Below are positions 21,017 through 38,600 of a DNA stretch of 64,000 nucleotides, piece after piece. The notes beneath the pieces are model-generated. The model was not told the origin of the DNA, did not search any database, and saw nothing but the letters and a program-made list of their open reading frames with translations. Position numbers and translations under genes: made by a program. Source of the DNA: Sulfurospirillum sp. GTDB taxonomy: Bacteria; Campylobacterota; Campylobacteria; Campylobacterales; Arcobacteraceae. How positions within the stretch are numbered: position 1 is the stretch's first letter; every line of letters begins with the position of its first letter. The stretch covers positions 62,001 to 126,000 of the forward strand of contig JAKZMJ010000002.1 in the NCBI GenBank assembly GCA_030491005.1. Reading direction: 5' to 3'.

Positions 21017-21382
21017 TTAATTTCCTATGGAAACACCTAAATTACTGTTCCTAACGATTGTTTTTTTACTTACATTTACATTTGAACTAATGTTAGAATT
21101 TTTTATTCTTGCATTTCCTTTTATCATTACGCCTAAATTACTTTTTATTATGATTGCTTTTTTACCTACATTTGTGTTTGAAGTAATATTAGAGCCTTTA
21201 ATTATTATTTTGTTTCCTTTTATTTTTATACCAATATTAGAATCTAATATTATTGCTTTTTTGCCTATATTTGTTTTTGAGGCAATATTAGAATTTTTAA
21301 TAATCACCTTACTTTTCGCTGCTATCGCACTTGAAACAAATACTAATATTAATAATATACTTGAACTAATTTTTTTTAACAT
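21017..21382 (-). CDS. Short exported repeat protein, paralogue of the 503-residue protein
   Basis: A Sec signal peptide (MLKKISSSILLILVFVSSAIA) is followed by about three 32-residue units of the kind S-x-I-x-[ST]-N-[ITV], then G-K-K, then I-x-x-S. Examples are SNIASKTNIGKKAIILDSNIG and SNLGVMIKGNARI. The signal peptide and ending (LGVSIGN) closely match those of the long paralogue 111 bp upstream (IIGVSIGG). This could be a minor subunit or nucleator of the same structure, by analogy with CsgB and CsgA. That role is inference. Confidence 0.75.
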   Translation of the reverse strand: MLKKISSSILLILVFVSSAIAAKSKVIIKNSNIASKTNIGKKAIILDSNIGIKIKGNKIIIKGSNITSNTNVGKKAIIIKSNLGVMIKGNARIKNSNISSNVNVSKKTIVRNSNLGVSIGN

Positions 21383-21492
21383 TTTTTTCCTTAAATTTTT
21401 ATAGTAACTTAAAATTTACTTTTCTATTTATATATTTACATTCTTTATTATATTTGTCAACTTTAATATATATTATTAACAATTCCTTGATT

Positions 21493-23004
21493 TTAGCCTC
21501 CTATAGAAACACCTATTATACTTCCTTTTATTGTAGAACTTTTACCTATTCTTACGTTTGAACGAATATTTGTATTGTTCATTCTTGTGTTTCCTTTGAT
21601 ACTTGTGCCAATAATACTATCTTTGATTATAGATTTTTTACCTATTCTTACATTTGAACTAATATTTGTATTGTTCATTCTTGTGTTTCCTTTGATACTT
21701 GTGCCAATAATACTATCTTTGATTATAGATTTTTTACCTATTCTTACATTTGAACTAATATTTGTATTGTTCATTCTTGTGTTTCCTTTGATACTTGTGC
21801 CAATAATACTATCTTTGATTATAGATTTTTTACCTATTCTTACGTTTGAACGAATATTAGAGTTGCTTATTTTAGTGTTTCCTTTGATACTTGTGCCAAT
21901 AATACTATCTTTGATTATAGATTTTTTACCTATTCTTACGTTTGAACGAATATTAGAGTTGCTTATTTTAGTGTTTCCTTTGATATTTGTACCAATTTCA
22001 CTATTTTTTATTCTTGCTTTGTCACCTATTCTTACGTTTGAACGAATATTAGAGTTGCTTATTTTAGTGTTTCCTTTGATATTTGTACCAATTTTACTAT
22101 TTTTTATTCTTGCTTTGTCACCTATTCTTACGTTTGAACGAATATTAGAGTTGCTTATTTTAGTGTTTCCTTTGATATTTGTACCAATTTTACTATTTTT
22201 TATTCTTGCTTTGTCACCTATTTTTACGTTTGAACGAATATTAGAGTTGCTTATTTTAGTGTTTCCCTTGATATTTGTACCAATTTCACTATTTTTTATT
22301 CTTGCTTTGTCACCTATTCTTACGTTTGAACGAATATTAGAGTTGCTTATTTTAGTGTTTCCTTTGATATTTGTACCAATTTCACTATTTTTTATTCTTG
22401 CTTTGTCACCTATTTTTACGTTTGAACGAATATTAGAGTTGCTTATTTTAGTGTTTCCCTTGATATTTGTACCAATTTCACTATTTTTTATTCTTGCTTT
22501 GTCACCTATTCTTACGTTTGAACGAATATTAGAGTTGCTTATTTTAGTGTTTCCTTTGATATTTGTACCAATTTCACTATTTTTTATTCTTGCTTTGTCA
22601 CCTATTTTTACATTTGAATTAATAGTAGAATTATCAACTTTTATTCTGTTCCCACTTATATTTGTACCAATTTTACTATTTTTTATTCTTGCTTTGTCCC
22701 CTATTTTTACATTTGAATTAATAGTAGAATTATCAACTTTTATTCTGTTCCCACTTATATTTGTACCAATTTTACTATTTTTTATTCTTGCTTTGTCCCC
22801 TATTTTTACATTTGAATTAATTGTAGAATTTTTAATTGTAATTCTTTTAGCTTTTAAGGTTGTACCAATTCTATTACCTACTAATTTTGCTTTTTTACCT
22901 AAACTTACTTGTGCTTTGATTGTATTCTCATTTTTTGTTGCTGCTATTGCACTTGACACTAATACTGCTATTGCGAATATACTTAAACTAATTTTTTTTA
23001 ACAT
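21493..23004 (-). CDS. Exported 32-residue tandem-repeat protein (503 aa), probable beta-solenoid
   Basis: A Sec signal peptide ending SSAIAA is followed by about 15 units with period 32 residues. Each unit has two half-repeats of 15 and 17 residues: SEIGTNIKGNTKISN and SNIRSNVRIGDKARIKN. The regular S-x-I-x-S-N-V/I spacing with Gly turns predicts stacked beta strands. Lys, Arg, Asn and Ser dominate and there is no Cys, Trp, Phe, Tyr or His in the repeat region. Two unit types exist: IGDKARIKNS towards the N-terminus and IGKKSIIKDS towards the C-terminus. It lies in an operon with CsgG-like genes, which suggests secretion as a fibre or coat subunit. No known family is recognised. Confidence 0.82.
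   Translation of the reverse strand: MLKKISLSIFAIAVLVSSAIAATKNENTIKAQVSLGKKAKLVGNRIGTTLKAKRITIKNSTINSNVKIGDKARIKNSKIGTNISGNRIKVDNSTINSNVKIGDKARIKNSKIGTNISGNRIKVDNSTINSNVKIGDKARIKNSEIGTNIKGNTKISNSNIRSNVRIGDKARIKNSEIGTNIKGNTKISNSNIRSNVKIGDKARIKNSEIGTNIKGNTKISNSNIRSNVRIGDKARIKNSEIGTNIKGNTKISNSNIRSNVKIGDKARIKNSKIGTNIKGNTKISNSNIRSNVRIGDKARIKNSKIGTNIKGNTKISNSNIRSNVRIGDKARIKNSEIGTNIKGNTKISNSNIRSNVRIGKKSIIKDSIIGTSIKGNTKISNSNIRSNVRIGKKSIIKDSIIGTSIKGNTRMNNTNISSNVRIGKKSIIKDSIIGTSIKGNTRMNNTNISSNVRIGKKSIIKDSIIGTSIKGNTRMNNTNIRSNVRIGKSSTIKGSIIGVSIGG
21520..22900. repeat. Tandem 96-bp coding repeats
   Basis: The repeat protein gene consists of 96-bp units that recur almost unchanged between about 21840 and 22610. 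A short GTTTGAACGAATATTAGAG segment recurs every 96 bp. Small variants (CCTTTG/CCCTTG, CTATTCTT/CTATTTTT, TTTCAC/TTTTAC) alternate in blocks, which points to recent duplication of two-unit blocks. Copy number is likely to vary between strains. The opposite strand has no stops across the array, which is a by-product of the repeat. Confidence 0.85.
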
Positions 23005-23022
23005 TTTTTTTCCTTAAATTTT

Positions 23023-24237
23023 TTATAGTAACTCAAAATTTACTTTACTATTTATATATTGACATTCTTTATTATCTTTATTATTACATTGATTTTTGAT
23101 ATTAAAAGATTTTATAATCATATCACCTCTACTTATTCCCTTTTTTTGAAGAAATTTAAATATTTTTTTTCCTCCTTTATGATTTAATAAAGAATTTCCA
23201 TAACTTTTTATGATAAGTTTTTGTATATTTCCTATGTTTTTTTCTTCTTTGTAAAAATTAAATAATTTATTTAGTTTTTTAAACTCTGTATTTTTATTCA
23301 ATCCACCAAAGCTTTTATTTTTCAATAAAGCATATAAGTATACCTCTATATCTTCTACCGAATCAATTTTTTTGACTAAATTTAAAATTTTTATTTTTTT
23401 AGTTGATGTGTGATTTCTCTTTTTTGCTATACAAGTTTGAATTAAATATGAATATTTTTTAATAATATTTATATTAGTTCCACACATATTATTTTCTAAT
23501 ATATGTTTTGATATTTCATTTATGATTTGATTTACTATTTCTGGATTATTTTCTGTAAAACTTTTTTCAGAAATTAACACCAAATCTGATTGTATGGTAC
23601 GTAAATCTTTTTCTTGAGAAATCTTTTCTTTTTTAAATATTATTTGGTTAAAGCCCTTAATATTTGGTACACTAATAAATCTAATGCTATTTTTATATTT
23701 TTTAATTATTTTTGAATTAATATTATCAGAAAACGCAACTGCATCTAAGCCGTTTCCACTTATCATATTAGTCAAAGCTATTTCACTATTATCGTAGTAT
23801 TGATTAAAAACAATATCAAAATTTGACATTAATGTTAAAGAAAAAAGATCAATAGAACTATTTTCTACTCCAAAATTAATATTTCTATTGTGTAAATCAT
23901 AGATACTATTATATGCAGAATCTTTTCTTACAGCTATAAATATAGCTTCACTTTTTAAAGGAGATATTAAGGTATAATTTGAAAGTTTTTTAGAATCATT
24001 TTGATTTATTCCATGTAAAACACTTAGACTTGTAACTGCCAAGTCTACAGTTTTAAGCTGACCTAATTCATATAAAACTATTGATTCATTGTCTAAAGGG
24101 ATTAATTTAATATTTTGTATTAAGAGAGTAATTTTATTTAAGTATTCTTCTAAATATATATTATGCTTATCATAGGCTATTTTGATACTTGCAAAACTTA
24201 TATCAAATAATAGTATTAATCCAAATAAAAATTTCAT
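23023..24237 (-). CDS. Exported solute-binding-like protein (TAXI/PhnD-like fold) with extra C-terminal domain
   Basis: A signal peptide (MKFLFGLILLFDISFA) is followed by a domain that resembles periplasmic binding proteins of the PhnD or TAXI type: KIAYDKHNIYLEEYLNK, LKSEAIFIAVRKDSAYNSIYDL and an INFGVENSSIDLFS block near residue 120. From about residue 255 a Lys-rich domain follows, with three Cys near the end (NQCNNKDNKECQY) that is not part of that fold. No transporter genes are adjacent. A role in sensing or in guarding the exported repeat protein is possible but unproven. Confidence 0.6.
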   Translation of the reverse strand: MKFLFGLILLFDISFASIKIAYDKHNIYLEEYLNKITLLIQNIKLIPLDNESIVLYELGQLKTVDLAVTSLSVLHGINQNDSKKLSNYTLISPLKSEAIFIAVRKDSAYNSIYDLHNRNINFGVENSSIDLFSLTLMSNFDIVFNQYYDNSEIALTNMISGNGLDAVAFSDNINSKIIKKYKNSIRFISVPNIKGFNQIIFKKEKISQEKDLRTIQSDLVLISEKSFTENNPEIVNQIINEISKHILENNMCGTNINIIKKYSYLIQTCIAKKRNHTSTKKIKILNLVKKIDSVEDIEVYLYALLKNKSFGGLNKNTEFKKLNKLFNFYKEEKNIGNIQKLIIKSYGNSLLNHKGGKKIFKFLQKKGISRGDMIIKSFNIKNQCNNKDNKECQYINSKVNFELL

Positions 24238-24245
24238 TAATTATC

Positions 24246-25292
24246 TTATAAAAGCTTTTTAAAGCTTTTGGTTGATTGTGATAAAGTTACATTTTTTTGT
24301 TTTTCTTTATGAGCCTCTTCTAATAAGCTAATATATAGTTCTGCAGTAATACTTATATCTATAGGAAGAATTCCTTTTCTTTTTTTATATTTAATTATTT
24401 CATCATAAGTTCCTTCTGCTCTTATAAGCTCTAAAAGATATATTATAGTATTCTCTTGTTTATTCTCAGCTAATTTTACAAAGTTTCTTTTGATATCTCG
24501 TAACAATCTACGATCTTTTTTTGCACCTGGAACACAAAGCCAATATGGTTTTTTCTTAAGTTTTCCAATAAGTTCAATCATACTTAAATCTACTAATAGT
24601 CTAATAGCTGCATGTTTGCCTTGTTCTTTTGAAACCGAAGCACTAAGACCAAAACCACTTCCTAATATAGAAAAACCAAATTCTTTTGAAGCAGACTGTT
24701 TAATGACTTTTATACTATTAGAAGTTCTAACTTTAGAAACAAATCTTCTTGTTAATCCATCAAGAATATTAAAATCTAAAGTTATTTTTGCTACTTGATT
24801 ATCATCAGAGCCATCAGCATTTCCATCTGCTTCTCCTCGACCTTTTCCTACATGAAGAGATAAGTTGGCTCCTGCACTTGAACTTTCTAAAACATCATAT
24901 TCTGTTATTGCTCCTGTAACAATATAAAATTTTTTATTATCACCTATATCATCAGAACTTGAATATAAGGCTACTTTTTCACCTATTTCATTTAAAGCAC
25001 TAATTACCATCATAGTTATGTCTTTAGGCAATGCTGATCCTCCCGCACCACCTGTGTTATTGCTTACAGGACCAATAACGATATTAATTACATCATCATT
25101 ATACAAAGTTAATAATTCATTTAAGTTGTCAAGCCCATCAGTATATTTATTAATATTAAAGGTTACTTCACTGTTCTTTGCCAAATTAATTTTTGGCTGT
25201 ATTGATTTAGCTAGTTCTGTACTGCAAGCAGTGTAGTTTAATACTACAAATAGTATTACCCCTAAGTTTTTGAATATATTTTTAAATTTCAT
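24246..25292 (-). CDS. CsgG/HfaB-like outer-membrane lipoprotein
   Basis: The signal ends in the lipobox YTAC with Cys near residue 23. The mature part follows the CsgG pattern: a Gly/Ala-rich region (NNTGGAGGSALPKDITMMVISAL), FYIVTGAITEYD near residue 125, a Gly-rich stretch with LSLHVGKGRGEADG, then KITLDFNILDGLTRRFV and AAIRLLVDLSMIELIGKL. In CsgG this domain forms a nonameric pore that exports curli subunits. A C-terminal extension of about 100 residues is unlike CsgG. This gene is the main reason to propose a secretion role for the operon. Confidence 0.75.
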   Translation of the reverse strand: MKFKNIFKNLGVILFVVLNYTACSTELAKSIQPKINLAKNSEVTFNINKYTDGLDNLNELLTLYNDDVINIVIGPVSNNTGGAGGSALPKDITMMVISALNEIGEKVALYSSSDDIGDNKKFYIVTGAITEYDVLESSSAGANLSLHVGKGRGEADGNADGSDDNQVAKITLDFNILDGLTRRFVSKVRTSNSIKVIKQSASKEFGFSILGSGFGLSASVSKEQGKHAAIRLLVDLSMIELIGKLKKKPYWLCVPGAKKDRRLLRDIKRNFVKLAENKQENTIIYLLELIRAEGTYDEIIKYKKRKGILPIDISITAELYISLLEEAHKEKQKNVTLSQSTKSFKKLL

Positions 25293-25311
25293 TGTTTTCT
25301 CCTTTTATTTT

Positions 25312-25707
25312 TTAGTTTAAAATACTATTTTTTATTATTACTGTATTAGTAACCTTGCCTCTAAAGTTTTTATTTAATTTTATGCCATAAAGTCTTTTTT
25401 GATTTTTTGATTTTTTGTATTTTGCTAGTCCATATAGCTGACTGCTCTTTCTTTTTCTTAATTTTACATTTTTTACTTCTACATAACCAATAATTCTTGT
25501 ATATCTTTTGTTTCTAACTTCCAATCCTATAGTTTGACCATGTTCTTGAGCTTTGTAAAATTCTTTATTTCCATTGATAACTTTATAGTTAGCACCTTTA
25601 ATACCTTTAGCTGCTCTATTTTTTGCTAAAGACTTATTGTAAGAATTATTAGCATACAAATTTGTAATACCTATAATACAAATTATGATTATTTTTAAAG
25701 TTTTCAT
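25312..25707 (-). CDS. Small basic exported protein of unknown function
   Basis: The 131-residue protein has a signal peptide (MKTLKIIIICIIGITNLYA) and a very basic mature part with many Lys and Arg (KNVKLRKRKSSQLYG, YKKSKNQKRLYG). Its end, NTVIIKNSILN, resembles a half-repeat of the 32-residue repeat proteins. I recognise no family. The position directly before the CsgG-like gene makes it a candidate accessory or capping subunit. Confidence 0.65.
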   Translation of the reverse strand: MKTLKIIIICIIGITNLYANNSYNKSLAKNRAAKGIKGANYKVINGNKEFYKAQEHGQTIGLEVRNKRYTRIIGYVEVKNVKLRKRKSSQLYGLAKYKKSKNQKRLYGIKLNKNFRGKVTNTVIIKNSILN

Positions 25708-25708
25708 T

Positions 25709-26380
25709 TCATCCTCCTATATATATAAAATCATCAATATACTCTTGTGCATTAATATTGATTCTTTTTGATTTTCTATGTTTATTTTTTTTATAATATA
25801 TTATTTTTTTTTCTTTTTGTTTTATATTTAATTTTTTTAATAAAGTAATATCAATTGCTAAGTTATTTTTTGCTAAATCATAAGGAGTTTGTCCTTGTTT
25901 ATTCATAATATTTTTATTAGCACCTCGTTTTAATAAAAATTCAATAAGAAAATTTGCCGAGTATTGAACAGATAAATGTAAGAGAGTTTGTCCATTAAAA
26001 TCTTTTATATTTAAATTTGAGATTCTTAAAATAAAATAATAAGCGATATTATAATATTGTTTTTTGATTGCTAAATGAGCAGCCGTTACATTTTGATCTC
26101 CTGATATAAATTCAAAATCTGCACCTTTGTGAACTAGAAGTTTTATAAATTTAAGTCTATTTAAAGATATTGCTTTGTTTAATAATGTAGGTGTATATAT
26201 ATTATAAACATTAGGATTAATATTATTTTTGTAAAAGAATAATTTGAATTTATTATAATTATTGTTATTTATAAAACTAACTAATTGTAAATAGTTAGTT
26301 TTATTTTTAGAATAAATTTCTTTAGCATTTAATGAGATAAACAATGCTAGTAAAAAGTATATTAAGAATAATTTTTTCAT
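25709..26380 (-). CDS. Exported ankyrin-repeat protein
   Basis: A signal peptide (MKKLFLIYFLLALFISLNA) precedes about four ankyrin repeats: TPTLLNKAISLNRLKFIKLLVHKG, AAHLAIKKQYYNIAYYF, GQTLLHLSVQYSANFLIEFLLKRG and GQTPYDLAKNNLAID. Ankyrin repeats bind proteins, so a periplasmic scaffold or immunity-like role is plausible. The C-terminal 45 residues are Lys/Arg-rich. One base separates it from the next gene, so it belongs to the operon. Confidence 0.75.
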   Translation of the reverse strand: MKKLFLIYFLLALFISLNAKEIYSKNKTNYLQLVSFINNNNYNKFKLFFYKNNINPNVYNIYTPTLLNKAISLNRLKFIKLLVHKGADFEFISGDQNVTAAHLAIKKQYYNIAYYFILRISNLNIKDFNGQTLLHLSVQYSANFLIEFLLKRGANKNIMNKQGQTPYDLAKNNLAIDITLLKKLNIKQKEKKIIYYKKNKHRKSKRININAQEYIDDFIYIGG

Positions 26381-26381
26381 A

Positions 26382-27041
26382 TTAATCTAATCTTTCTATT
26401 GTGGTTGTAAAGTTAATATCTTTTTCAATTATTGGAGTACCAAGATAGTAAATATTACTCACGGCTTTACTTTTTATAAATAAATAATCTTTTATATTAA
26501 GAATAACTTCACCTGCACCTTTTAAATTTAATTTTGCATTTTTAATACTTGAATCTTCAAAATCTAAATTATAAGAACCATCAGCATTTATATTAAGAAT
26601 ATGAATTTGTACATTGTTACTTTTTAAATCAATTGCACCATCAATATTAAATGTGAGTTTATCAAAAGCTATATTTTTTATATTAATATCAGAGCTACTT
26701 TTAAGAGTGATATTTTCTAATGTATTTATATAAAAATATATTGAAAATTTACTTTTTGTTTGAAAACTTCTACTAGAAGTAATCAACAATTTATTTTTTA
26801 TTTTTTTAATGTTAATATGTCCCAGTAAATTATCATCAATGTGTAAGATAAAATATTGATTAGATAAACTTGGAGATTTTTGTATATGAATATCTATTGG
26901 TATATTTATTTCTAAGGAATCAATAGAGTCTATATTTTCTTTTTTAATCATACTTTTACCAGAACCAACTGTTAAACTATCTGCATAGACAGAGTGTACT
27001 AATAAAAAAGAAATAAAATAAACTCTAATAATAAAAGTCAT
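26382..27041 (-). CDS. Exported GIN-domain (DUF2807) protein
   Basis: A signal segment ends SVYA. The mature protein is a single beta-rich domain with alternating S/N and hydrophobic residues, for example ITLKSSSDINIKNIAFDKLTFNIDG, LNINADGSYNLDFEDS and NLKGAGEVILNI. This fits the head/GIN domain (DUF2807), a right-handed beta-helix found in surface proteins. It lies 3 bp after the upstream gene. Its beta-helix nature fits the repeat-protein theme of the operon. Confidence 0.68.
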   Translation of the reverse strand: MTFIIRVYFISFLLVHSVYADSLTVGSGKSMIKKENIDSIDSLEINIPIDIHIQKSPSLSNQYFILHIDDNLLGHINIKKIKNKLLITSSRSFQTKSKFSIYFYINTLENITLKSSSDINIKNIAFDKLTFNIDGAIDLKSNNVQIHILNINADGSYNLDFEDSSIKNAKLNLKGAGEVILNIKDYLFIKSKAVSNIYYLGTPIIEKDINFTTTIERLD

Positions 27042-27044
27042 AAT

Positions 27045-27434
27045 TTAGTTTTCTATTCCACGGACATAAAACTTAAAAGAATCAATTTTAGATGTTATTG
27101 CTAAACTTTTTACCACAATAGTATCTTTAGCATCAACAACAATTCTTTTCCATTTACTTGAACCTTTAGATATCCCAAACCCACTAACATCATACCATAG
27201 AAATTTATATTCTAAATAATGCTTATTTGAATCTTTATTTTTTATGATAACTCTTGCATCAAGTAAATCATATATAAATCTTGAATTAGAACCTTGAATT
27301 GATATATTATAGGATAAAGGGATGTCATTTATAATAACTTGATCTGCTTCACTTTCAAATGTATTACTAGCACTACCATCTCCTGCTATAAGTGAAGAAA
27401 ATAATATATAAATTAATATAATAATTTTTTTCAT
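27045..27434 (-). CDS. YcfL-like (DUF1425) exported protein
   Basis: A signal peptide (MKKIIILIYILFSSLIAG) precedes a DUF1425-type beta domain: RVIIKNKDSNKHYLEYKFLWYDVSGFGI, then WKRIVVDAKDTIVVKSLA. I place the start at the ATG at 27434, which overlaps the TGA of the protease gene (ATGA). A longer ATG start at 27446 is possible. It lacks a clear lipobox, unlike the second YcfL-like gene at 28228. In gammaproteobacteria ycfL sits beside lpoB, but its function is not settled. Confidence 0.7.
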   Translation of the reverse strand: MKKIIILIYILFSSLIAGDGSASNTFESEADQVIINDIPLSYNISIQGSNSRFIYDLLDARVIIKNKDSNKHYLEYKFLWYDVSGFGISKGSSKWKRIVVDAKDTIVVKSLAITSKIDSFKFYVRGIEN

Positions 27435-28228
27435 GACATACTCCATTCTTTTAAATATTTAAAATCTTTAGAATCTTCTTTTTTATAAGAAAATTGACTA
27501 AATGTTGAAGCTATTGCTTCTAATTTGTTTATACGGTTTTTGTGTTGTGGATGTGTACTAAAGACACAAGTATTGATATTTGTTGAACCAGGATACTTCT
27601 TTTGTAATCTTTTAAAAAAAGAACTAGCATGTGCAATAGAATAGTTAGTTTCCAAAAATGATTTAATTATAAATGCATCTGCTTCATGTTCCCAAATACG
27701 ACTATAAGATTTATTTAATAGCGTAAAGTTAAATTTATTTATATTATTTAGATCTAAAGATTTAAATAAATCATTTTGTATATATCTTCTTTCGGCATGT
27801 TTATAATGAACATGCCCAATTTCATGTGCTATTACAGAAGCTAGTTGGGTTTCATTTTGACATAATTTAATTAAGTTTTTTTCAATAAAAATTAATCCGC
27901 CTCCACAAGTATAAGCATTTTCAACTTTAGTATCTACAATAAAAATTTTCCAATTTAAAATACGATTGCTTACTTTAAATAAAGGTAAAGATATTTGTCT
28001 AATTGCATTTTGTATTACATCGTTTTTAACTAGCATTTGAGGTAGTTTATATTTCATATAATAATTTACAACAAAGTCAACTTTTTCAGAATAACTAATT
28101 TTACTTATTTTCTTAAAAGTGTTTTCTAAAGCATGCATTTTATTTATATCTTCTAAGGAAAAAGAATTTCCGTATAAAGACCCAGCAAAACTTGTACCTA
28201 ATAAGGCAAAAAAATCTCTTCTTTGCAT
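27431..28228 (-). CDS. M48-family zinc metalloprotease with Tat-type signal
   Basis: The zinc motif HEIGHVHYKH near residue 145, with a downstream Glu (WEHEADAF), marks an M48 peptidase like BepA or LoiP, which degrade or refold outer membrane proteins. The N-terminus MQRRDFFALLGTSFAG carries a twin-arginine signal. I take the ATG at 28228, which overlaps the TAA of the previous gene (TAATG). The C-terminal HPQHKNRINKLEAI block is also typical. In this operon it may do quality control on exported subunits. Confidence 0.85.
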   Translation of the reverse strand: MQRRDFFALLGTSFAGSLYGNSFSLEDINKMHALENTFKKISKISYSEKVDFVVNYYMKYKLPQMLVKNDVIQNAIRQISLPLFKVSNRILNWKIFIVDTKVENAYTCGGGLIFIEKNLIKLCQNETQLASVIAHEIGHVHYKHAERRYIQNDLFKSLDLNNINKFNFTLLNKSYSRIWEHEADAFIIKSFLETNYSIAHASSFFKRLQKKYPGSTNINTCVFSTHPQHKNRINKLEAIASTFSQFSYKKEDSKDFKYLKEWSMS

Positions 28229-28653
28229 TATTTTTCTTTTATACAATTCTTCGCACAAGAAATATTAAGCAATACATTCTTCGCCTTAAAATTAGGCGCA
28301 TTTAAAATTATACGCTTAGAGCTATTAGCAGGCAAGATAAATCTATTTTTTAGCATATGATTATTTACAATAACACCTCTTGTGTTAGTCCATTCATGTT
28401 CAATAATAATATTATATATATCACTACTTGAATTATCAAGAACAAATTGAAGCTGTTTTTTGTATTTACTATTAACTAAACGAGAGTTAAAAATTCTCAG
28501 ATCATCTCTTAAATCTTTATTGTGAATAATAACACTAATTCCATCTGGGTAGTCAATCTGATTAATATGACTCAAACGAGGAGTAGCGTTGTTTACACAT
28601 CCTGTAAAGAATATAAAAGATATACTTAATAATATAATTTTAACTTTATTCAT
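28228..28653 (-). CDS. YcfL-like (DUF1425) lipoprotein
   Basis: The signal ends in the lipobox FFTGC. The mature part has the DUF1425 pattern: RIFNSRLVNSKYKKQLQFVLDNSS, IIIEHEWTNTRGVIV and LPANSSKRIILNAPN. Two more Cys lie near the end (ISCAKNCI). It is coupled to the protease gene by a one-base overlap and is one of two such proteins in the operon. Confidence 0.75.
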   Translation of the reverse strand: MNKVKIILLSISFIFFTGCVNNATPRLSHINQIDYPDGISVIIHNKDLRDDLRIFNSRLVNSKYKKQLQFVLDNSSSDIYNIIIEHEWTNTRGVIVNNHMLKNRFILPANSSKRIILNAPNFKAKNVLLNISCAKNCIKEK

Positions 28654-28662
28654 AATTTTCTC

Positions 28663-29880
28663 CTATTGAAATTGAATATTTAAGATACTATTCCCATCAT
28701 CACTTATTTGAATGGGAATGCCAACACTATCTGATAAGTCATATAATTTATCTGCAAAATCTTCTAAGTCCAATTCTTCATGTGTCCCAAAATTATATAC
28801 TTGTTCAAAGTCACTACTTTCGGAAGAGTTTTTTATTGGTTTTGCCTTTAGTTCTTTAATTACATCTCTTACAAGTTTTCTTTTTCCTCTACTTGAACCA
28901 TCATTTGTAATATTCATTAAAATAACAGTATATTGATATTCAAAAGAATTTAGCTTTTTAGTTTTTTTACTACTTGTTTCTTTCTTTTTACCGATATAAT
29001 TTAATAAATTACTTGTTATGTGACTTGACGCCAAAATTGATGCTTTTTCATATAACTTAAATACAAGATTGTCCTTATCCATTGCAAATGCTGTTACTAT
29101 CTGTGGTTTTATTGATTGATCTTTTTTACCACTTTTAGTATTAAACATTATTATTCGATATGTTAAAGTTCCTCTTAAATTTGTCTTTTTGCTTAGATTA
29201 TATTCTTTGAGTACTAATTTATCAAGTAAAAAAGCATATTCTATATTCTCATTTTCTTTACATTCTTCTACTCTTTTTCTCAAAGCTGCTATAGCACTTT
29301 TATAAGAATTTGATTTCTTTTTTATATATATATTTAGCTTTGCTTCAATTTTTTTACAATGATTTCCTTTTCTTCCAACTTGTTCTTCTTTATGTATTAC
29401 AGAAAAAGAATGCCCTGAATTATTCAAATCTGCTTGCAAATATGAAATAAAATTTTTACTGTCTTCATTAGAAATACTATCAATTAGAACAATTTTTAAA
29501 TTACTCATCTGATGTTTACCCATCGTGGTAGTTTGATTTGATTTTTCGCTTAAAATAGCTCTTATTTTTTTTAAATTTATATTTCCTCTTACATAACATA
29601 AAAAACCATCATCACCTTTATTTTGACATTTATATGTAGAAAAATCAAAATATTCTTCTTTAAATTGTATAAAATCTTTATTTAAATCTTTTTTAAATGA
29701 TTTTTTTATACTTCCTTTGTAAGCATTTTGTCCTATTAAATCATCTAAAATACTTTCAAAAGCCTTCCAATGTGCATTTTGTATAGCTATTTCTTTATCA
29801 AACGATTGATTTAAGCCATTCACACTTTTTCCATATACACAAACATATAGAAAAAATAAGAAAATAAATATTTTTCTCAT
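28663..29880 (-). CDS. Exported protein with FlgT/LPP20-like N-terminal region, function unknown
   Basis: A signal peptide (MRKIFIFLFFLYVCVYG) leads into a region like the FlgT N-terminal domain, with KSVNGLNQSFDKEIAIQNAHWKAFESILDD and CYVRGNINLKKI. After about residue 125 there are alternating alpha/beta segments (LKIVLIDSISNEDSKNFISYLQADL), which may be another CsgG- or TolB-like Rossmann-type domain. It overlaps the upstream gene by 4 bp (ATGA). FlgT-like and CsgG-like folds recur across this operon, so it is probably a structural partner. Confidence 0.6.
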   Translation of the reverse strand: MRKIFIFLFFLYVCVYGKSVNGLNQSFDKEIAIQNAHWKAFESILDDLIGQNAYKGSIKKSFKKDLNKDFIQFKEEYFDFSTYKCQNKGDDGFLCYVRGNINLKKIRAILSEKSNQTTTMGKHQMSNLKIVLIDSISNEDSKNFISYLQADLNNSGHSFSVIHKEEQVGRKGNHCKKIEAKLNIYIKKKSNSYKSAIAALRKRVEECKENENIEYAFLLDKLVLKEYNLSKKTNLRGTLTYRIIMFNTKSGKKDQSIKPQIVTAFAMDKDNLVFKLYEKASILASSHITSNLLNYIGKKKETSSKKTKKLNSFEYQYTVILMNITNDGSSRGKRKLVRDVIKELKAKPIKNSSESSDFEQVYNFGTHEELDLEDFADKLYDLSDSVGIPIQISDDGNSILNIQFQ

Positions 29881-31181
29881 ATTAATCCTTTACAAAAATT
29901 TTCATAAATAAAAATTTTTCCTTGTCTTTTATCTACTATTGCTTCAATATCAAGTAGAATTTTACTTGATAATAAAGCAATAGATTTTATAATAACTTTA
30001 ATAATTTCGTAATCTCTTCGTGTATCACTTCTTTTTGATATATCGTAAGCCTTTGAAGATTGAGAAGTTAAAATTTTTGGTTTGTTTATTATGTCATTTG
30101 TTAGACTTAAAGCATTTACAATCTGCTTATCTTTCAAGGGTATTATTATTCTAGCTAACATTGAAACATATATAGCTTTATTTATCTCAGTATCATCTTC
30201 TTTTATTTTTTTATCCAATAAATTATTTAAGAAAGCTTGTATCTTATAACCATTTACAAATCTATGTTGTCCGTCAAAAGTACTTTTTTTACATACATCT
30301 TTAATGCTTCTTATTATAATATTAGCATTTTTATCTTTTATAGTATTGTGCGAAAACTCTTTTATTCTAATAAGATATTCATCCCAATTTTTAAATATAA
30401 ATTCATTTAACAAATCAGGGTAAAGCAATACTATATCACTGAACTTATCTTGCTGTCTTAATTTTCTTATTAAATTTTCTTGAAGCATAAGTAAAAGTTG
30501 TTTTTGGGCATTTTTATTAGTTTTAAAAACTTCTGAAGCTAATTTTTTGATAGATGGATTAATTTTAAAGTTTTCAATTATAATATATATATCATCACTC
30601 ATTAGTGCAGTAAGAGTTTTTTTATTTTTATCTGCTATTATGGCATCAAGTAAATTTGAAAGTGCTTTTTCGTAAGCTTTTTTATAAATTTTTTCCAATG
30701 TATATGTTTCATTTAGCGCAGTATTAGCAATATATGTTATACTTTTTGTATATCTTGTCTCAAAAGTATCTTCCGAACCTATTCTGTTTGGTTCTTCCCC
30801 AAGTTGAACATATGTTAGATTAAAAGTTATTATTCCTTCCGCAATTTTATTAGCAGCTAAAACAAAGTTTTGAAAACTATCAAGATGAATAAAACTCATT
30901 TTTCTATCTCTTATATCAGATGATTCAATATATTTTTTTGTATTTTTATTAAAATCATCTCTTAATAGCAGGTTGATTTTTTTTATTTTATTTTTAAATT
31001 TATTTTCTAATAATTTTTCAGTATAAGAACTTAATGCCCAATTATTATCAAATTCATTTTTAGGGAATAAATATGATTGAACATTTAAATTTTTTTCACT
31101 ATAAGTGCCAATAAATAGGCTAAAATTATTGGCACTTACTTTAAGTATACAAACAATAAGTAAAATAAATATATACTTCAC
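29877..31181 (-). CDS. Large exported helical protein of unknown function
   Basis: The 434-residue protein has a signal peptide ending KVSA and an N-terminal part that resembles FlgT/LPP20-type sequences (YLFPKNEFDNNWALSSYTEKLLENKFKNKI). From about residue 140 it is mostly helical and charged. I do not recognise a family. It ends on TGA, which overlaps the start of the next gene. Confidence 0.6.
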   Translation of the reverse strand: MKYIFILLIVCILKVSANNFSLFIGTYSEKNLNVQSYLFPKNEFDNNWALSSYTEKLLENKFKNKIKKINLLLRDDFNKNTKKYIESSDIRDRKMSFIHLDSFQNFVLAANKIAEGIITFNLTYVQLGEEPNRIGSEDTFETRYTKSITYIANTALNETYTLEKIYKKAYEKALSNLLDAIIADKNKKTLTALMSDDIYIIIENFKINPSIKKLASEVFKTNKNAQKQLLLMLQENLIRKLRQQDKFSDIVLLYPDLLNEFIFKNWDEYLIRIKEFSHNTIKDKNANIIIRSIKDVCKKSTFDGQHRFVNGYKIQAFLNNLLDKKIKEDDTEINKAIYVSMLARIIIPLKDKQIVNALSLTNDIINKPKILTSQSSKAYDISKRSDTRRDYEIIKVIIKSIALLSSKILLDIEAIVDKRQGKIFIYENFCKGLI

Positions 31182-31221
31182 TAGTTTAATCTTTTAAATG
31201 TATACATAAAAATATTTAAGA

Positions 31222-32112
31222 CTAAAATGCATTTTTAAATGTCTGTTCACTTTTAGCAATTAGCTTTTTTTCATCTTGCATCATATTTTTTGCTGCTCTA
31301 TTGGCTGCTCTTGTATCAATTTTAATATTACTATTTGTAATAACTTTTGAAATAGAAGATTTAGCAGTTGTTCCTACAACTACGACAGTTTTCAATTGAG
31401 TTAATAAAATCTTTAAAGAAGTAAAATTTTTAATTGCCCATAATATATTATCTTTTCCAAATTCTGCTATTTCTTTATCCCAGCCTATTAGCAAAGCTGT
31501 ATATTTTGGAAAACTTTTTAAAAAAATACCTTGTGCTTCACTTATTTTCTTAGCATCTTTTACTTTTGTATTTTTCATGATTTCTTGAATTTTGGCAGTA
31601 TTCTCTGCAATACCTACATTTAATTGTGCTTGATTTTGAATATTCTTTCTATCTTTCATATCAGCTTTAAGTTGGTTTATTTCTTTTGTTTCTTCTAATG
31701 CTTCTAATATCTTTTTATTTACTATATTAAGACTTTGAAAATATCTGTTAGATATACTTTCAATATATTTTAATCTAGCATCTGCTTCACAAGTATCCAT
31801 AATTTTTTTTGGTAGTTGTACATCTTTCATACCTTCTATATTTTTTAATGCCTGTGTTACAAGTAAATTAAACATTTGTTTAGTGAGTAAACTTGTCATA
31901 TTCACTTGTCCAGTAGCCATTCTTGGCATACATACTTTATTGCTTTTACCTTTTAGGTTTCCTTTTTGCTGTACAGATGAAGCTACAATTGAACTTGCTG
32001 CTTTTTGGTTTGCAGAACCTGCTAATGATTGAACTATCATTTGTGTTGCTACTCCAGTACATCCACTTAAGAACACTGCTATTAACCCTGTTGTTATTAT
32101 TACCTTTTTCAT
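31222..32112 (-). CDS. Lipoprotein of unknown function, helical
   Basis: The signal ends in the lipobox FLSGC (Cys near residue 18). The mature part of about 275 residues is helical with coiled-coil character (LEETKEINQLKADMKDRKNIQNQAQL). Two further Cys (KVCMPRM and DTCEAD) may form a disulfide. It lies 16 bp after the triple CsgG-like gene and would be placed in the outer or inner membrane through the Lol pathway. Confidence 0.65.
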   Translation of the reverse strand: MKKVIITTGLIAVFLSGCTGVATQMIVQSLAGSANQKAASSIVASSVQQKGNLKGKSNKVCMPRMATGQVNMTSLLTKQMFNLLVTQALKNIEGMKDVQLPKKIMDTCEADARLKYIESISNRYFQSLNIVNKKILEALEETKEINQLKADMKDRKNIQNQAQLNVGIAENTAKIQEIMKNTKVKDAKKISEAQGIFLKSFPKYTALLIGWDKEIAEFGKDNILWAIKNFTSLKILLTQLKTVVVVGTTAKSSISKVITNSNIKIDTRAANRAAKNMMQDEKKLIAKSEQTFKNAF

Positions 32113-32128
32113 ATATATTCCTACTCCT

Positions 32129-34726
32129 TTAATTTGATGTTTTTTTTCTTAAGATATAATTTTCTTTTATATCATTTATATCACCCTTTATTACTATTGC
32201 TTCTGCACTATCATCAAAAATATTATCTATTTTAACTTCTGCAATTCTGCTTCCATAAACTAATCTTTGTTTACCAGTTCTTTTGATTGTTTTCATTTTA
32301 GGTTCTGGATATACATAAAATATATCTCCAATTCTAGTATCCTTCTTTTCTGGCATATCAACAGATAAACTAAACTTTCCTACTTCCATAACAGTTAATA
32401 AACCATCTGAAACAATATTAGATTTATTATTTATTAAAGATTTAATGGATTTATTCACAACTTTTTTAGTTAGTTGATAAATATTTGTATATAATGGTAC
32501 AGCATTTTTTAATTTTGTTTGACTAGTCCAAGCATGGGTATATTTAGCAGATTGTAAATCATCGAAAATTATTTCACCTTTTATGTCCATTAATGTTAAC
32601 GATAATTCTATTTCAATATAATCTTTATTTTCATAATTATCTATATATTCAATTTTTTTTGATATTCTCTGTAATTTAAATCTAGTTATTTTTGGTATTA
32701 AAATATAATCAGCTAAAGATAAGCGTACTTTATCCGAATCAAAGTCATCAGATATATCACTGTTGGAAAGTTGTTTTTCCATCATCAATTGTCTAATTTG
32801 GTTCTTATCACGACTAATAGTCTTAAAAATCTTAGATTTATTAATTGCTTGTTTTATTTTGATATTTAATTTTGCATTTTTTAAATATTTGTGTTTATAT
32901 TTAGAAATTGTTTCATCTATTAGTATATCTCTAATTACTATATTCTTTTTTCTATTTTTATCGTTTAAATTATTATTTTGTATACTTGTAGATTGTTTAT
33001 GTTGCTTATTTTTAACTTCATTGTATTTTATATCTAATTTTATTTCCAAGCCAATTTGATTTATACTTCCTTCAATAATACTTCCAATAGCTTCATCTTG
33101 ATTATTAAAACTATTTATTCTTATTTTTGCTATAGGCATACCACCAGATTGATAACTTTGACCAGTATGATTATCTGTAATCATCTCTCCTTTAGAAAAA
33201 ACTTTATAAATACTCCCTATCTCAATTCCTAAACTTTTTCCAGCATTTAATAAAACACTCATACCATTTATTTTGATTATTCTAGTAGGAGAAATCTCAT
33301 TAAAAATACTTTGTGAAGCTAATTTAGTAAATTTTTGAGATATTTGTTTCATAATTACTTCAAAAGAATTGTTTTTTCTTGAGAATTGTTGTGTAATAGT
33401 AACTGCTACACTAGCAATTTTATTTGAAGTATTCACATCCACTAAATAAACATATCCAGAAAGCTGTACTTTGATTTTTGGTCTTTGCATTACTAACATA
33501 CGAATTGATTCTAAATAATTTATTTTTATTTTTTTATCATCTATTTTTAAATAATCAATGGTATTAAATACTAAATAATCTACTCCTCTTAAACTTCCAA
33601 GAGGAAGTCCCATCTCTCTACCTTTTGATAATTCATCTAAAATTTGCTGTGCTAAAACTTTATTTGCATGAGCATTATTAGTTACAATAAAAGATTTATT
33701 TTGATTAAAAGCATGTTCCATATCACGATTAATAAAATTTATTAATACATTGTTTTTTACATTACTTCTATCTATAATTGTTTCCCCTATAGCTATCCTT
33801 ATTTTTTCTTTTAAAAATGTATTTTTATTGTTTTCAACATATTTAGCAATATTTCCACTTGTTGGTAATTCTTTTATATTTTTTAATTTACCAAAACTAA
33901 TTTTTTTATCAACTCTTGTAATTCTTATACTGGATATTTTTTTTTGCGTATCATAATTTTGTATTTTTTGTACTTTATAAATGTCAAAGCTCATTCCTAC
34001 TTTTATACCATTATTAGAACCTTTATTTAATACTAGTTCATTATCTTGTACTGCGATAACTTGTATTTTTTTTGTCATAGATAATAAAAGTTTAGAAACA
34101 AGTTCATCAGCCATAATATATAATGCACTATCAATTAAATCATTACTGTTGCCATCATCTGCTAATAATTTTTTTATTTTTATATTTTCTTTTGCTATTA
34201 TTTCTTGTGTAGAAATTTTAATTAAAGCAATGGAAATATTAGTATTTACTACGATTTGTTTTTTTGATACTTTTGCTATTTGTTGATTATTTAACTTAGA
34301 ACCTCTTAATTTATCTAAAGAAAAATTTTTAATTTCACCAAGCAATACATACTGAGCATTAAATTTTTTATATTTTTTATATTTTGTATCAGTAAATTTA
34401 AAATTTAATAAATCAAAACTAGTTTTTTTATTATACAAACCTAAGCCATTTGTTGCCATTATTTCATCAACTCGTGTTTTATTAATAATTCTAAAATTAC
34501 CATTCTTACTAAAATTATCATTTACATAACTTCTAAAACCAGCTAATGATTCTGCATACTGACTTTGTGAAGTATTACCTTTAAGTTGAAATTTACCAAT
34601 AGCTATACTACTTTTTGAATCGATTTCTTTTTCTTTCTTTTCTTTTTTATTAAATAAATCTGAAAAACTAAAAGCGTTTAATAATAAGGGGATAAGAAAG
34701 ATAAGTAAGTAAAATGTTTTTTTCAT
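32129..34726 (-). CDS. Exported protein with three CsgG-like plus FlgT_C-like modules (865 aa)
   Basis: The start is ATG at 34726, 7 bases after GGAGC; the longer TTG frame is less likely. A signal peptide is followed by a CsgG-type domain (SIAIGKFQL, FRIINKTRVDEIM, FNAQYVLLGEIKNF) and a small beta domain, ELVLNKGSNNGIKVGMSFDIYKV, like FlgT_C. Related pairs recur twice: around residues 300-570 (IRIAIGET, YLVFNTIDYL, VLLNAGKSLGIEIGSIYKVFS) and 595-865 (NIVIRDILID, YILIPKITRF, LSVDMPEKKDTRIGDIFYVYPE). It lacks a lipobox. First gene of the operon. Confidence 0.7.
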   Translation of the reverse strand: MKKTFYLLIFLIPLLLNAFSFSDLFNKKEKKEKEIDSKSSIAIGKFQLKGNTSQSQYAESLAGFRSYVNDNFSKNGNFRIINKTRVDEIMATNGLGLYNKKTSFDLLNFKFTDTKYKKYKKFNAQYVLLGEIKNFSLDKLRGSKLNNQQIAKVSKKQIVVNTNISIALIKISTQEIIAKENIKIKKLLADDGNSNDLIDSALYIMADELVSKLLLSMTKKIQVIAVQDNELVLNKGSNNGIKVGMSFDIYKVQKIQNYDTQKKISSIRITRVDKKISFGKLKNIKELPTSGNIAKYVENNKNTFLKEKIRIAIGETIIDRSNVKNNVLINFINRDMEHAFNQNKSFIVTNNAHANKVLAQQILDELSKGREMGLPLGSLRGVDYLVFNTIDYLKIDDKKIKINYLESIRMLVMQRPKIKVQLSGYVYLVDVNTSNKIASVAVTITQQFSRKNNSFEVIMKQISQKFTKLASQSIFNEISPTRIIKINGMSVLLNAGKSLGIEIGSIYKVFSKGEMITDNHTGQSYQSGGMPIAKIRINSFNNQDEAIGSIIEGSINQIGLEIKLDIKYNEVKNKQHKQSTSIQNNNLNDKNRKKNIVIRDILIDETISKYKHKYLKNAKLNIKIKQAINKSKIFKTISRDKNQIRQLMMEKQLSNSDISDDFDSDKVRLSLADYILIPKITRFKLQRISKKIEYIDNYENKDYIEIELSLTLMDIKGEIIFDDLQSAKYTHAWTSQTKLKNAVPLYTNIYQLTKKVVNKSIKSLINNKSNIVSDGLLTVMEVGKFSLSVDMPEKKDTRIGDIFYVYPEPKMKTIKRTGKQRLVYGSRIAEVKIDNIFDDSAEAIVIKGDINDIKENYILRKKTSN

Positions 34727-34817: not shown

Positions 34818-35468
34818 TCAATAATATAAACCCAAACCAATTCCTTTTTCTATTTTTATATTGAATTCAGGAAATTTTTTCTTAAATCTATATATAAAAT
34901 TTCTTCGTGTATTATCGTTTACATAGTTATCATCCCAAATATGTTTATCAATAGTTTCATAATTTATATTTGTATTAATATTAGTAAGTAGTATAAATAT
35001 TAAATGTCCCTCTTTTTTACTAAGATATATTTCTTCATTATTTTTGATAATTTTTTGTGAATTTGTATAATAGGTAAAATTTTTATATTTTATTAAGGAT
35101 GAAAAGTTTAGTTTTTCTAAACTAAGATATATCAATATCTCAAGTTCATCTACTCTTATAGGTTTTAGTAAATATCCTAAAATATCAACTCTTGATAACT
35201 CTTGTAATATTTTTTTATCTTTACAAGTGCTTATACAAATAATTGGAATTCTGTATTTTTTTTGAATATTGTATAAATTTTTAACACTAGTATCATTTTT
35301 AATTTGAGAAAATATCATATCTATTTTACTTTTAGATAATACATTCACTATTTCATGCAATGTGCTAACTTTTTCTATAGTTTTAAAATCAAATTTTGTT
35401 AAAGTCTGAATTAGTTTTTTATCATTTACCAATTCATCTCCCCATAAAATGGTCTTCAGATGAAACAT
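34818..35468 (-). CDS. Atypical OmpR-family response regulator without phospho-acceptor Asp
   Basis: Residues 1-115 form a receiver-like domain and residues 125-216 a winged helix (SKKEGHLIFILLT, IDKHIWDDNYVNDNTRRNFIYRFKKKF, GIGLGLYY). At the phosphorylation position the sequence reads KIDMIFSQIKND, so residue 55 is Gln, not Asp. The switch Ser/Thr (ICIST) and Lys102 (LLKPI) remain. The protein is probably controlled without classical phosphorylation, like HP1043/CosR. No kinase gene is adjacent. It lies between the CsgG-like operon and gltB, both of which have tandem direct repeats. Confidence 0.8.
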   Translation of the reverse strand: MFHLKTILWGDELVNDKKLIQTLTKFDFKTIEKVSTLHEIVNVLSKSKIDMIFSQIKNDTSVKNLYNIQKKYRIPIICISTCKDKKILQELSRVDILGYLLKPIRVDELEILIYLSLEKLNFSSLIKYKNFTYYTNSQKIIKNNEEIYLSKKEGHLIFILLTNINTNINYETIDKHIWDDNYVNDNTRRNFIYRFKKKFPEFNIKIEKGIGLGLYY

Positions 35469-35617: not shown

Positions 35618-35664
35618 AAGTTAGGCATATTAATTAACAAAAAATATGACTATAAAGGATATTG

Positions 35665-38600
35665 ATGGCTTCTAATTTAGATTTATTATCGTCTTTTAAA
35701 GATAATTGTGGATTTGGTTTAATGGCAGATTTGAAAAATAAACAAAGCCATAAAAACTTAGAGGATTCCATACATTCATTAGAAAGAATGATGCACAGAG
35801 GTGCCGTGGCAGCTGATGGGAAAACAGGAGATGGTTCTGGATTACTTTTGTCTATGCCAGACTTTTTTATGAGGAAAATTGCTAATGAACATGATATAGA
35901 CTTGCCTACAAGTTATGGTGTTGCTATGATTTTTACTAATAATTTAGATGATATAAGTGTATTTCATAAATTTTGTGAGCAAAATGATTTGAAAGTTGTA
36001 TTAACTAGAAAAGTTCCTATTAATACAGACGCATTAGGTGCCCAAGCATTAGAAAATTTACCACATATTACCCAAGTATTTGTATGTGCAAATGCTTTAA
36101 TATCGTCAAAGCGTTTTGATGCCATGTTATATTTAACACGAAAAGAGTGTGAACACAAACTAATTAATAATCAAGATTTTTATATATCTAGTTTTTCTTC
36201 AAAACTTATTTCATATAAAGGGCTTGTTATGCCCACACATATTAAAAAGTTTTATCTTGATTTAGATGATGAAGATTTTAAAATATCATTTGCATTATTT
36301 CATCAAAGATTTTCAACAAATACTCTTCCTAAGTGGAAATTAGCCCAACCTTTTAGAACTATAGCACATAATGGGGAAATTAATTCTATTAAATCTAATG
36401 AACTAAATGTTGCTATTAAATCAGAACAAATTAAATCAGAAGTATTTAGTGATGAAGAATTAGAACGACTTTTTCCAATTCTTCAAGAAAATGGATCAGA
36501 CTCAGCATTATTAGATAATATGTTTGAATTTTTACTTATAAATGGCAGTGACTTTTTTAAAGCTGCTCGTTCTTTAATCCCAGCACCTTGGCAGAACTCT
36601 CCACATATGGATGCAGACCTAAGAGCCTTTTATCAATATATGGCAACGGCTATGGAAGCTTGGGATGGACCAGCTGCTGTATCTTTAACTGATGGTAGAT
36701 ATATAGGATGTTTAATTGATAGAAATGGTTTAAGACCATCAAAATATGTAATAACAAAAGACCATAAAATGTACATTACATCAGAATATGGAACATTAGA
36801 TTTAGATGATAAAAATATAAAAGAATGTGGCAGATTAAAATCTGGTGAAATGATAGGGGTTGATTTAAAATATGGAAAAGTTTTAAAAGAAGAAGATATA
36901 AATAACTATTTAAAATCATCACAAAAATATTCAAAATGGTTAAATAATGATATGGATTATTTACAAGAATATATAGAAGAATCATTTGTTGATACAAGTG
37001 ATTATAAAATAAATAATTTAGAACAAAAACAAAAATATTTTAATATTACTTATGAGATATTAGACCAAATGATTGAACCTATGGCAAAAGATGGAAAAGA
37101 ACCAGTTGGTTCAATGGGTGATGATACACCATTAGCCTGTTTTTCTAAAGTTAATAGAAATTTTACAGATTTTTTTAGACAAAAATTTGCACAAGTTACA
37201 AATCCACCAATTGACCCTTATAGGGAAAAAGTTGTTATGTCTTTAGAAACTGGTTTTGGTCATATTCACAATATATTAGATGAGAAACCTATATATGCAA
37301 AAAGACTAAAAGTGGCAAGTCCAATTTTGATGCAAGAAAAATTTCATATCTTGCTTTCTTTTGGAAACGAGACATCTCCAAGGTATGATAAGTATTATAA
37401 AAATAAAAGATTTTCTACAACATTTGTGAATGATTTAGAAAAATCATTGAAAAATTTGACTTGTGATATTATTAAAGCTATTAAAGAAGAAAATGTATCT
37501 ATAATCATCTTAGATGATAGAGATTTATGTAAAGATAATAAGTTAATACCTATGTCTATGGTTATTGGTTTTGTTAATAATGCTTTATTAAATGAGGAAA
37601 TAAAACACAAGGCTTCATTAGTTGCTGTTTCAGGTGAAGTCTATGATCCACATATGGCAGCTGTACTTTTAGCTTATGGAGTAACTGCCATATATCCATA
37701 TATGATGTATGCCTCAGCTTTATCTTTATTTCAAAGACGAATTTCTTCTAAATATGAAATGCAAGAAAAACTAAAAAATACTCAAAAATCTCTTAATGGT
37801 GGATTATTAAAAATAATGTCCAAAATGGGAATTTGTACAATAGCATCTTATAGGAACTCAAGATTATTTGATATTATTGGTTTATCTGATGAAATAAATG
37901 ATGAATGTTTTAAAGGAAGTTATACGGAACTTTGTGGTTTAGGTTATGAAGATATTGAAAAAAGAATAGAAAAATCTCATTTTGATGCATTTTATAATGT
38001 TAAACATATGTTTCCTTTAGATATAGGTGGATTGTACAAATATACTAATGGTGGTGAATATCATGATTACGGTCCAAGCACAACAGCTGCTATTCATAAT
38101 AAAAATGCAAAAGGAAAAGAAGATATTCATGATTTTGATAAATTAAAATCTTTAATTGAAAATAGAGATAAAAAATTTATCAGAGATTTTTTTGAGTTTG
38201 ATTCTGATAAAAAAGCTATTAGTGTTGATGAGGTTGAAAATGTAGATAATATTTTTAAAAGATTTGCATCTGCAGCTATGTCTTGTGGTTCTATTTCTCC
38301 TGAAGTTCACGAATCAATAGCAATTGCTATGAATACTATAGGTGGTATGTCAAATTCAGGTGAAGGTGGAGAAGATTCAAAGAGATATAAAACTCTAAAA
38401 AATTCTAAGATTAAGCAAGTTGCATCTGGAAGATTTGGAGTTACACCTGCTTATTTAAGATCAGCTAAAGAAATTCAAATTAAAGTAGCACAAGGTGCAA
38501 AACCAGGTGAAGGTGGACAATTACCTGGGCATAAAGTTACAGCATTAATAGCAAGGCTAAGACATACGGTTGAAGGTGTTACTCTTATATCACCTCCTCC

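Follow-up and report, generated by a model that had tools for sequence, protein, structure and literature searches.

The locus described here raises the question of what an operon encoding exclusively exported proteins might build when it combines a CsgG-like lipoprotein with proteins made of regular 32-residue repeats. To answer it, we considered in turn the gene products, the predicted structures of the CsgG-like and repeat proteins, the gene neighbourhoods in other genomes and the systems already known. The window, i.e., the whole stretch of 64,000 nucleotides analysed, lies on contig C2 of an A+T-rich, 2.69-Mb genome (GC 25.8% overall and 24.0% in the operon), and the nearest relatives of the operon are found in Campylobacterota, with Arcobacteraceae as the probable family.

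Operon layout and accessory genes

The operon comprises 14 ORFs on the minus strand, between 34726 and 21017. A preliminary description of this DNA had presented them as same-strand genes with short gaps and with leaders or lipoboxes on nearly all products. Both statements hold: the genes are spaced by −31 to +40 bp, except for 110 bp between g13 and g14, and a signal-peptide-like N-terminal stretch is present in all 14 products, with clear lipoboxes in g2 and g5. The features are as follows, loci compared with the window being labelled L:

34818..35468 (−), OmpR-type response regulator (receiver and Trans_reg_C; Pfam 3.5e-7 and 2e-5)
32129..34726 (−), g1, FlgT-like protein with several CsgG/FlgT-type modules (FlgT_C 0.002, CsgG 0.05)
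31222..32112 (−), g2, family-less 296-aa lipoprotein (lipobox FLSGC; homologues in L035 and L049)
29877..31181 (−), g3, family-less 434-aa exported protein (homologues in L035 and L049)
28663..29880 (−), g4, family-less 405-aa exported protein
28228..28653 (−), g5, YcfL-like lipoprotein (DUF1425 6e-5, sub-threshold; lipobox FFTGC)
27431..28258 (−), g6, M48 metalloprotease with Tat-like leader (Pfam 8e-21)
27045..27446 (−), g7, YcfL-like protein (DUF1425 1e-18)
26382..27041 (−), g8, GIN (DUF2807) beta-helix protein (Pfam 1.6e-14)
25709..26380 (−), g9, exported ankyrin protein (Pfam 1e-13)
25312..25707 (−), g10, candidate minor subunit of 131 aa that bears two degenerate copies of the repeat
24246..25292 (−), g11, 348-aa CsgG/HfaB-like lipoprotein with predicted CsgG fold, candidate outer-membrane export pore
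23023..24237 (−), g12, solute-binding-like protein (TAXI type) extended by a further C-terminal domain
21493..23004 (−), g13, candidate major subunit, 503-aa predicted beta-solenoid of 15 x 32 residues (AlphaFold2 and repeat structure)
21544..22816 (−), 96-bp in-frame DNA repeat array within g13 (13.2 copies, 95% match)
21017..21382 (−), g14, 121-aa short paralogue of g13 (same leader; C-terminal GVSIG motif)

The response regulator gene precedes the operon by 79 bp in the same orientation and is a candidate regulator of it; on reading the sequence, a Trans_reg_C-like gene also adjoins the repeat gene in L050. A promoter scan returned nothing better than chance. Beyond the response regulator, gltB (35662-40101) points in the opposite direction; gltB also adjoins the cluster in L013 (10041-11363), in a genome of another family and with a different gene order.

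Several accessory proteins could be placed in families. The YcfL-like, M48, GIN and ankyrin proteins named in the preliminary description all have Pfam matches, although one of the two YcfL-like matches is sub-threshold. Near its start, g6 carries MQRRDFF, which is Tat-like in look, and g7 is 55-61% identical to its counterparts in L035 and L049. For g12, the family profile matches TAXI-type solute-binding protein (SBP) structures at 2e-8, but the match is confined to roughly the first 240 positions, beyond which a second, unnamed domain follows; the Pfam match of g12 is weak (TAXI/NMT1-like, 1e-5). Likewise, of the two proteins that had been called CsgG-like, g11 has a clear predicted CsgG fold, whereas g1 (869-aa ORF, 865 aa counted from its ATG) has weak Pfam matches and is FlgT-like, with no more than a weak likeness to CsgG, and not another CsgG pore; g1 homologues occur in L035, L049, L015 and L041. 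No convincing family match in Pfam or NCBIfam was obtained for g2, g3, g4 and g10, and PDB gave no match for g3 or g4. Full-length matches to g4 are found in 2/397 genomes of the phylum, and both genomes have a CsgG-like gene.

The repeat proteins and the CsgG-like protein

Two 32-residue repeat proteins were said to be placed last in the operon, and g13 and g14 occupy that position. In g13, the signal peptide is followed by a 32-residue unit repeated 15 times, and its self-alignment lies far beyond chance when compared with shuffles (z about 168). Each unit reads as two similar halves, KISNSNIRSNVRIGDKA and RIKNSEIGTNIKGNT, suggesting that the true coil comprises 15-17 residues. The repeats in the window are rich in I/N/K/S. 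Because the 96-bp array encoding them is so uniform, we suggest that it expanded recently and in frame. A 480-aa antisense frame at 21575-23017 (+) arises artefactually from the repeat, as do frames in L013 and L045 that mask the true repeat gene.

As the preliminary description had supposed, the protein at 21493 is predicted to be a continuous beta-solenoid: in a single-sequence run, AlphaFold2 gave one unbroken solenoid with a pLDDT of 92.7 and a pTM of 0.88, a model that cannot separate a folded rod from an amyloid, as AlphaFold2 yields solenoids for many repetitive sequences. At 4.8 Å per coil, about 30 coils would span near 14 nm. As for the handedness of the solenoid, sequence profiles point to a left-handed helix (Pfam Hexapep 6e-29; LbH, i.e., left-handed hexapeptide helices, 6e-43), whereas its structural neighbours among the matches listed are right-handed helices such as Vag8 (Z 24.7 over 319 residues) and pertactin (Z 22.4); left-handed helices are absent among these listed matches, which does not exclude that fold. 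The C-termini of the repeat proteins stop at the same repeat phase even in distant relatives (GVSIGG in g13; GVSIGN, GVSLGY, GVKLGD and GVQIGD in other repeat proteins), and this shared phase would suit end-to-end stacking of subunits. Inspection by eye did not reveal an N-terminal targeting segment like that of CsgA. g10 is kept beside CsgG in L035, L036, L037, L014, L013, L015 and L041 and, being more widely kept than g14, is the better candidate for a minor subunit; a role of g14 as nucleator, as proposed in the preliminary description, is only a guess.

Some further matches of g13 lead elsewhere. It matches PHROG 5353 (function unknown) at 6e-27; however, neither g13 nor g11 had a tblastn match among 50,697 phage records, and a phage origin was rejected. 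A third g13-like match in the same genome is GlmU, on a contig resembling contamination. By reading, that region (L063, G000:C29:33000-40000) has spoVG-like, glmU and prs genes arranged as in Firmicutes, and the contig is probably contamination in an assembly rated as 3.4% contaminated. Matches in 840-930-aa proteins of other genomes are probably unrelated hexapeptide proteins.

The sequence similarity of g11 to CsgG is weak: the Pfam CsgG family matches g11 at 1e-3, just under the cut-off, and 8/19 relatives match it at E <= 0.01. g11 has the lipobox-like NYTAC, the Cys23 of which is kept in nearly all relatives in the 19-sequence alignment. The protein at 24246 is predicted to have a CsgG fold. 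In Foldseek, the best 21 rows listed for an AlphaFold2 model built from the alignment of 19 relatives (pLDDT 72.8) are all CsgG (2e-6, prob 1.00), and VIA-align superimposes the model on CsgG 4uv2 with a Z of 15.8 over 165 residues at 2.8 Å, compared to Z values of 10.7 (LPHT ring), 10.5 (FlgT) and 9.9 (PelC). Thus, g11 is nearer to CsgG than to other families with the same fold. The strands of a putative membrane hairpin are present in the model, with a pLDDT < 50 at the tips. Over the last 100 residues, which are helical, the family profile matches the PG-binding protein 5tv7 at 5e-4; Pfam PG_binding_1 is found in 2/19 relatives (best 0.0017) and not in g11 itself, and TPR repeats are found in four of the 19. 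To our knowledge, E. coli CsgG has no PG-binding-like C-terminal domain.

The best NCBIfam match of g11 is HfaB (4e-7). HfaB is itself CsgG-like, and HfaA and HfaD depend on it for reaching the surface (PMC6707917). An alternative reading is that the operon encodes a complex resembling the Caulobacter holdfast anchor HfaABD, in which surface solenoids anchor a polysaccharide or a substrate surface instead of forming a free fibre. The composition of g13 would fit such a role: the mature protein has 103 K/R and 21 D/E residues (net charge about +82) and could bind acidic polymers. This charge is, however, not conserved, the repeat protein of L040 being acidic as judged by reading; moreover, the HfaB score of 29.5 bits is far under the cut-off of 300 bits, and polysaccharide synthesis genes are absent among the 14 operon genes. 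We consider a holdfast-anchor-like complex unlikely.

Neighbourhoods of g11 homologues

Homologues of g11 are rare and patchy across Campylobacterota. Counting the genome itself, they are found in 2/104 genomes of the family, in 8/200 of the order and, by profile, in 10/397 of the phylum, four of the latter being weak N-terminal matches; the second genome of the genus lacks a homologue. A scan of named genomes with a four-sequence alignment identified Sulfurimonas SAG AH-194-I05 (59% identity), several Sulfurovum MAGs, one MAG each of Nitratiruptor, Magnetobacteriaceae and Nitrospirae, and two Deltaproteobacteria MAGs.

The locus L035, from a Sulfurimonas single-cell genome, keeps most of the window operon in order: FlgT-like, g2, g3, g4, g5, g7, ankyrin, g10, CsgG, SBP, repeat protein and, last in the cluster (12908-13918), a protein in which a FecR domain (1.6e-11) is fused to the same beta-solenoid repeats. 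L049 has g1-g5, g7, ankyrin and g10-like genes, two CsgG-like genes and a gene for a 112-aa repeat protein. Common to L013, L015 and L041 are repeat protein, g10-like, CsgG, SBP, pentapeptide and GIN-like genes; in L015 and L041, YcfL, LpoB and FlgT-like genes follow. In L043, L044 and L045, CsgG is accompanied by a repeat protein and by a small exported protein. In the Sulfurovum-type loci L040 (7844-9993), L046 (7813-9957) and L048 (6701-8888), the CsgG-like gene by reading follows genes for a caspase-like protein and a DUF4384-like lipoprotein, which would represent a different accessory set.

Single copies of the solenoid motif (GNAGIVIDG/GNTGIIING) are found in GIN-like proteins of L015 (15262-16002), L041 (3757-4485) and L013 (8584-9285), and the ankyrin protein of L013 (3979-4680) has one at its C-terminus (GNIDIQVGG). 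One idea is that these GIN-like and ankyrin proteins might dock on the polymer by means of the motif.

A neighbourhood check set beforehand asked whether the repeat proteins occur together with CsgG-like genes, and they do. A secreted 29-36-residue repeat protein lies within about 4 kb of CsgG in 16/21 usable loci (the window, L013, L015, L017-L020, L035, L040, L041, L043-L046, L049 and L050), a count to which L020 and L049 were added, from which the truncated L022, L037 and L047 were left out and in which some loci are closely related. Among these loci are some from Sulfurimonas, Sulfurovum, Nitratiruptor, Nitrospirae and Deltaproteobacteria genomes. In the remaining five usable loci (L014, L021, L036, L042 and L048), a separate repeat protein was not seen. 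When the 413 ORFs of 24 loci were scanned for periodicity, which singled out 29-36-residue repeat proteins, 15/16 repeat ORFs were <3 kb from a CsgG-like gene (145 ORFs there), with one among the 245 ORFs farther off; because the repeat class was partly picked by eye and set after looking, with Sel1-type and other repeats left out, the resulting Fisher p of 2e-6 is a guide only. Altogether, the neighbourhoods support a link between the repeat proteins and the CsgG-like gene. The 14 genes are not a fixed unit. The recurrent core consists of one or more repeat proteins, a small repeat-bearing protein and a CsgG-like protein, often with an SBP-like protein; the remaining genes form an envelope-protein module that varies from locus to locus.

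These neighbourhoods also bear on the idea that the solenoids stay inside the cell as a periplasmic scaffold or spacer, with the CsgG-like, FlgT-like, YcfL and GIN proteins forming an envelope complex without export. The leaders place most operon proteins in the periplasm, the periplasmic fold of CsgG is also that of FlgT, PelC, LptE and TolB, the C-terminus of g11 is PG-binding-like, and L015 and L041 contain the LpoB and FlgT-like genes. However, the best fold match of g11 is CsgG itself, and repeat proteins with a Sec leader and no lipobox adjoin CsgG in phyla without most of the other genes. A scaffold of this type is, in our assessment, quite improbable.

A CsgG-type export model and known systems

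We suggest that the operon products probably act together as an envelope machine, which brings repetitive beta-solenoid proteins to the cell surface by a route of the CsgG/HfaB type. This idea is supported by the CsgG fold, the g13 solenoid, the recurrent co-localisation, the synteny with L035, the co-occurrence of g4, the FecR domain and the C-terminal phase; it is weakened by the low sequence similarity to CsgG, the low-pLDDT hairpin tips and the five loci without a repeat protein. We infer pore function, cargo, extracellular folding and polymer as follows. Judging from their leaders, all products would enter the periplasm by Sec or Tat. g11 would form a CsgG-like outer-membrane pore, which its C-terminal region may tether to peptidoglycan. 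By analogy to CsgG, g13 and probably also g14 and g10 would cross this pore unfolded. Outside the cell, each 32-residue unit would fold into two solenoid coils, giving a rod of about 14 nm, and the rods would stack end to end or coat the surface, with g10 or g14 as a possible start or anchor of the polymer. g12, g1-g5, g7 and g8 would serve as periplasmic or outer-membrane accessories, perhaps in place of CsgE and CsgF, and the M48 protease g6 possibly removes misfolded subunits. The 96-bp in-frame repeats would allow subunit length to change by recombination. The end product may equally be a fibre, a coat or anchored rods.

More broadly, and more tentatively, the operon could represent a distinct branch of CsgG-type export, present in Campylobacterota, Nitrospirae and deltaproteobacterial genomes, in which a pore with a PG-binding tail and a different set of helpers assemble non-curlin beta-solenoids, with coils of 15-18 residues, into polymers at the surface. 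If so, the CsgG export route is not bound to curlin amyloid, and one pore family would handle unrelated beta-solenoid building blocks in several phyla. Among the bacteria concerned would be sulfur- and hydrogen-oxidising Campylobacterota, in which we found no description of curli. The system would also provide a second model for cargo choice by CsgG-type pores and would be a natural supply of highly regular protein rods whose length can be tuned. A description of it was not found in the literature searched, subscription papers being outside the coverage, and the main text of a broad curli survey (PMC3521004), as searched, does not mention Epsilonproteobacteria.

As the preliminary description had noted for the operon, CsgA, CsgE and CsgF are missing: a genome-wide search gave no match to the curlin repeat (PF07012) of CsgA/B or to CsgE and CsgF, with positive E. 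coli controls in each case. Thus, this is not a standard curli locus. CsgE and CsgF are also missing from many alphaproteobacterial curli systems, and CsgG is part of a larger protein family with many non-curli matches (PMC3521004). The FlgT/LPHT ring, PelC and LpoB share the periplasmic fold, g1 is FlgT-like, and LpoB and FlgT-like genes occur in L015; nevertheless, g11 is far nearer to CsgG (Z 15.8 vs <=10.7). g13 resembles hexapeptide left-handed helices by sequence and pertactin-type right-handed helices by structure but differs from both in its paired coils of 15-18 residues and in having no enzymatic or autotransporter domain. HfaABD, in which the CsgG-like HfaB acts with secreted surface proteins (PMC6707917), offers the nearest example of a CsgG-like protein whose partners are not those of curli; HfaB tops the NCBIfam matches of g11, which is far under the HfaB cut-off, and holdfast synthesis genes are absent from the operon. 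By its pore, the closest known system is curli. The two have in common a CsgG-fold lipoprotein adjoining small secreted repeat proteins, which possibly form a major/minor pair, and solenoid-type repeats, and the FecR association in one relative (L035) is reminiscent of pelagiphage modules of alphaproteobacterial origin, in which FecR accompanies curli genes (PMC9599517). The operon differs from curli in its repeats of 29-36 residues in place of the curlin repeat, in the PG-binding-like C-terminus of g11 and in its many added envelope genes.
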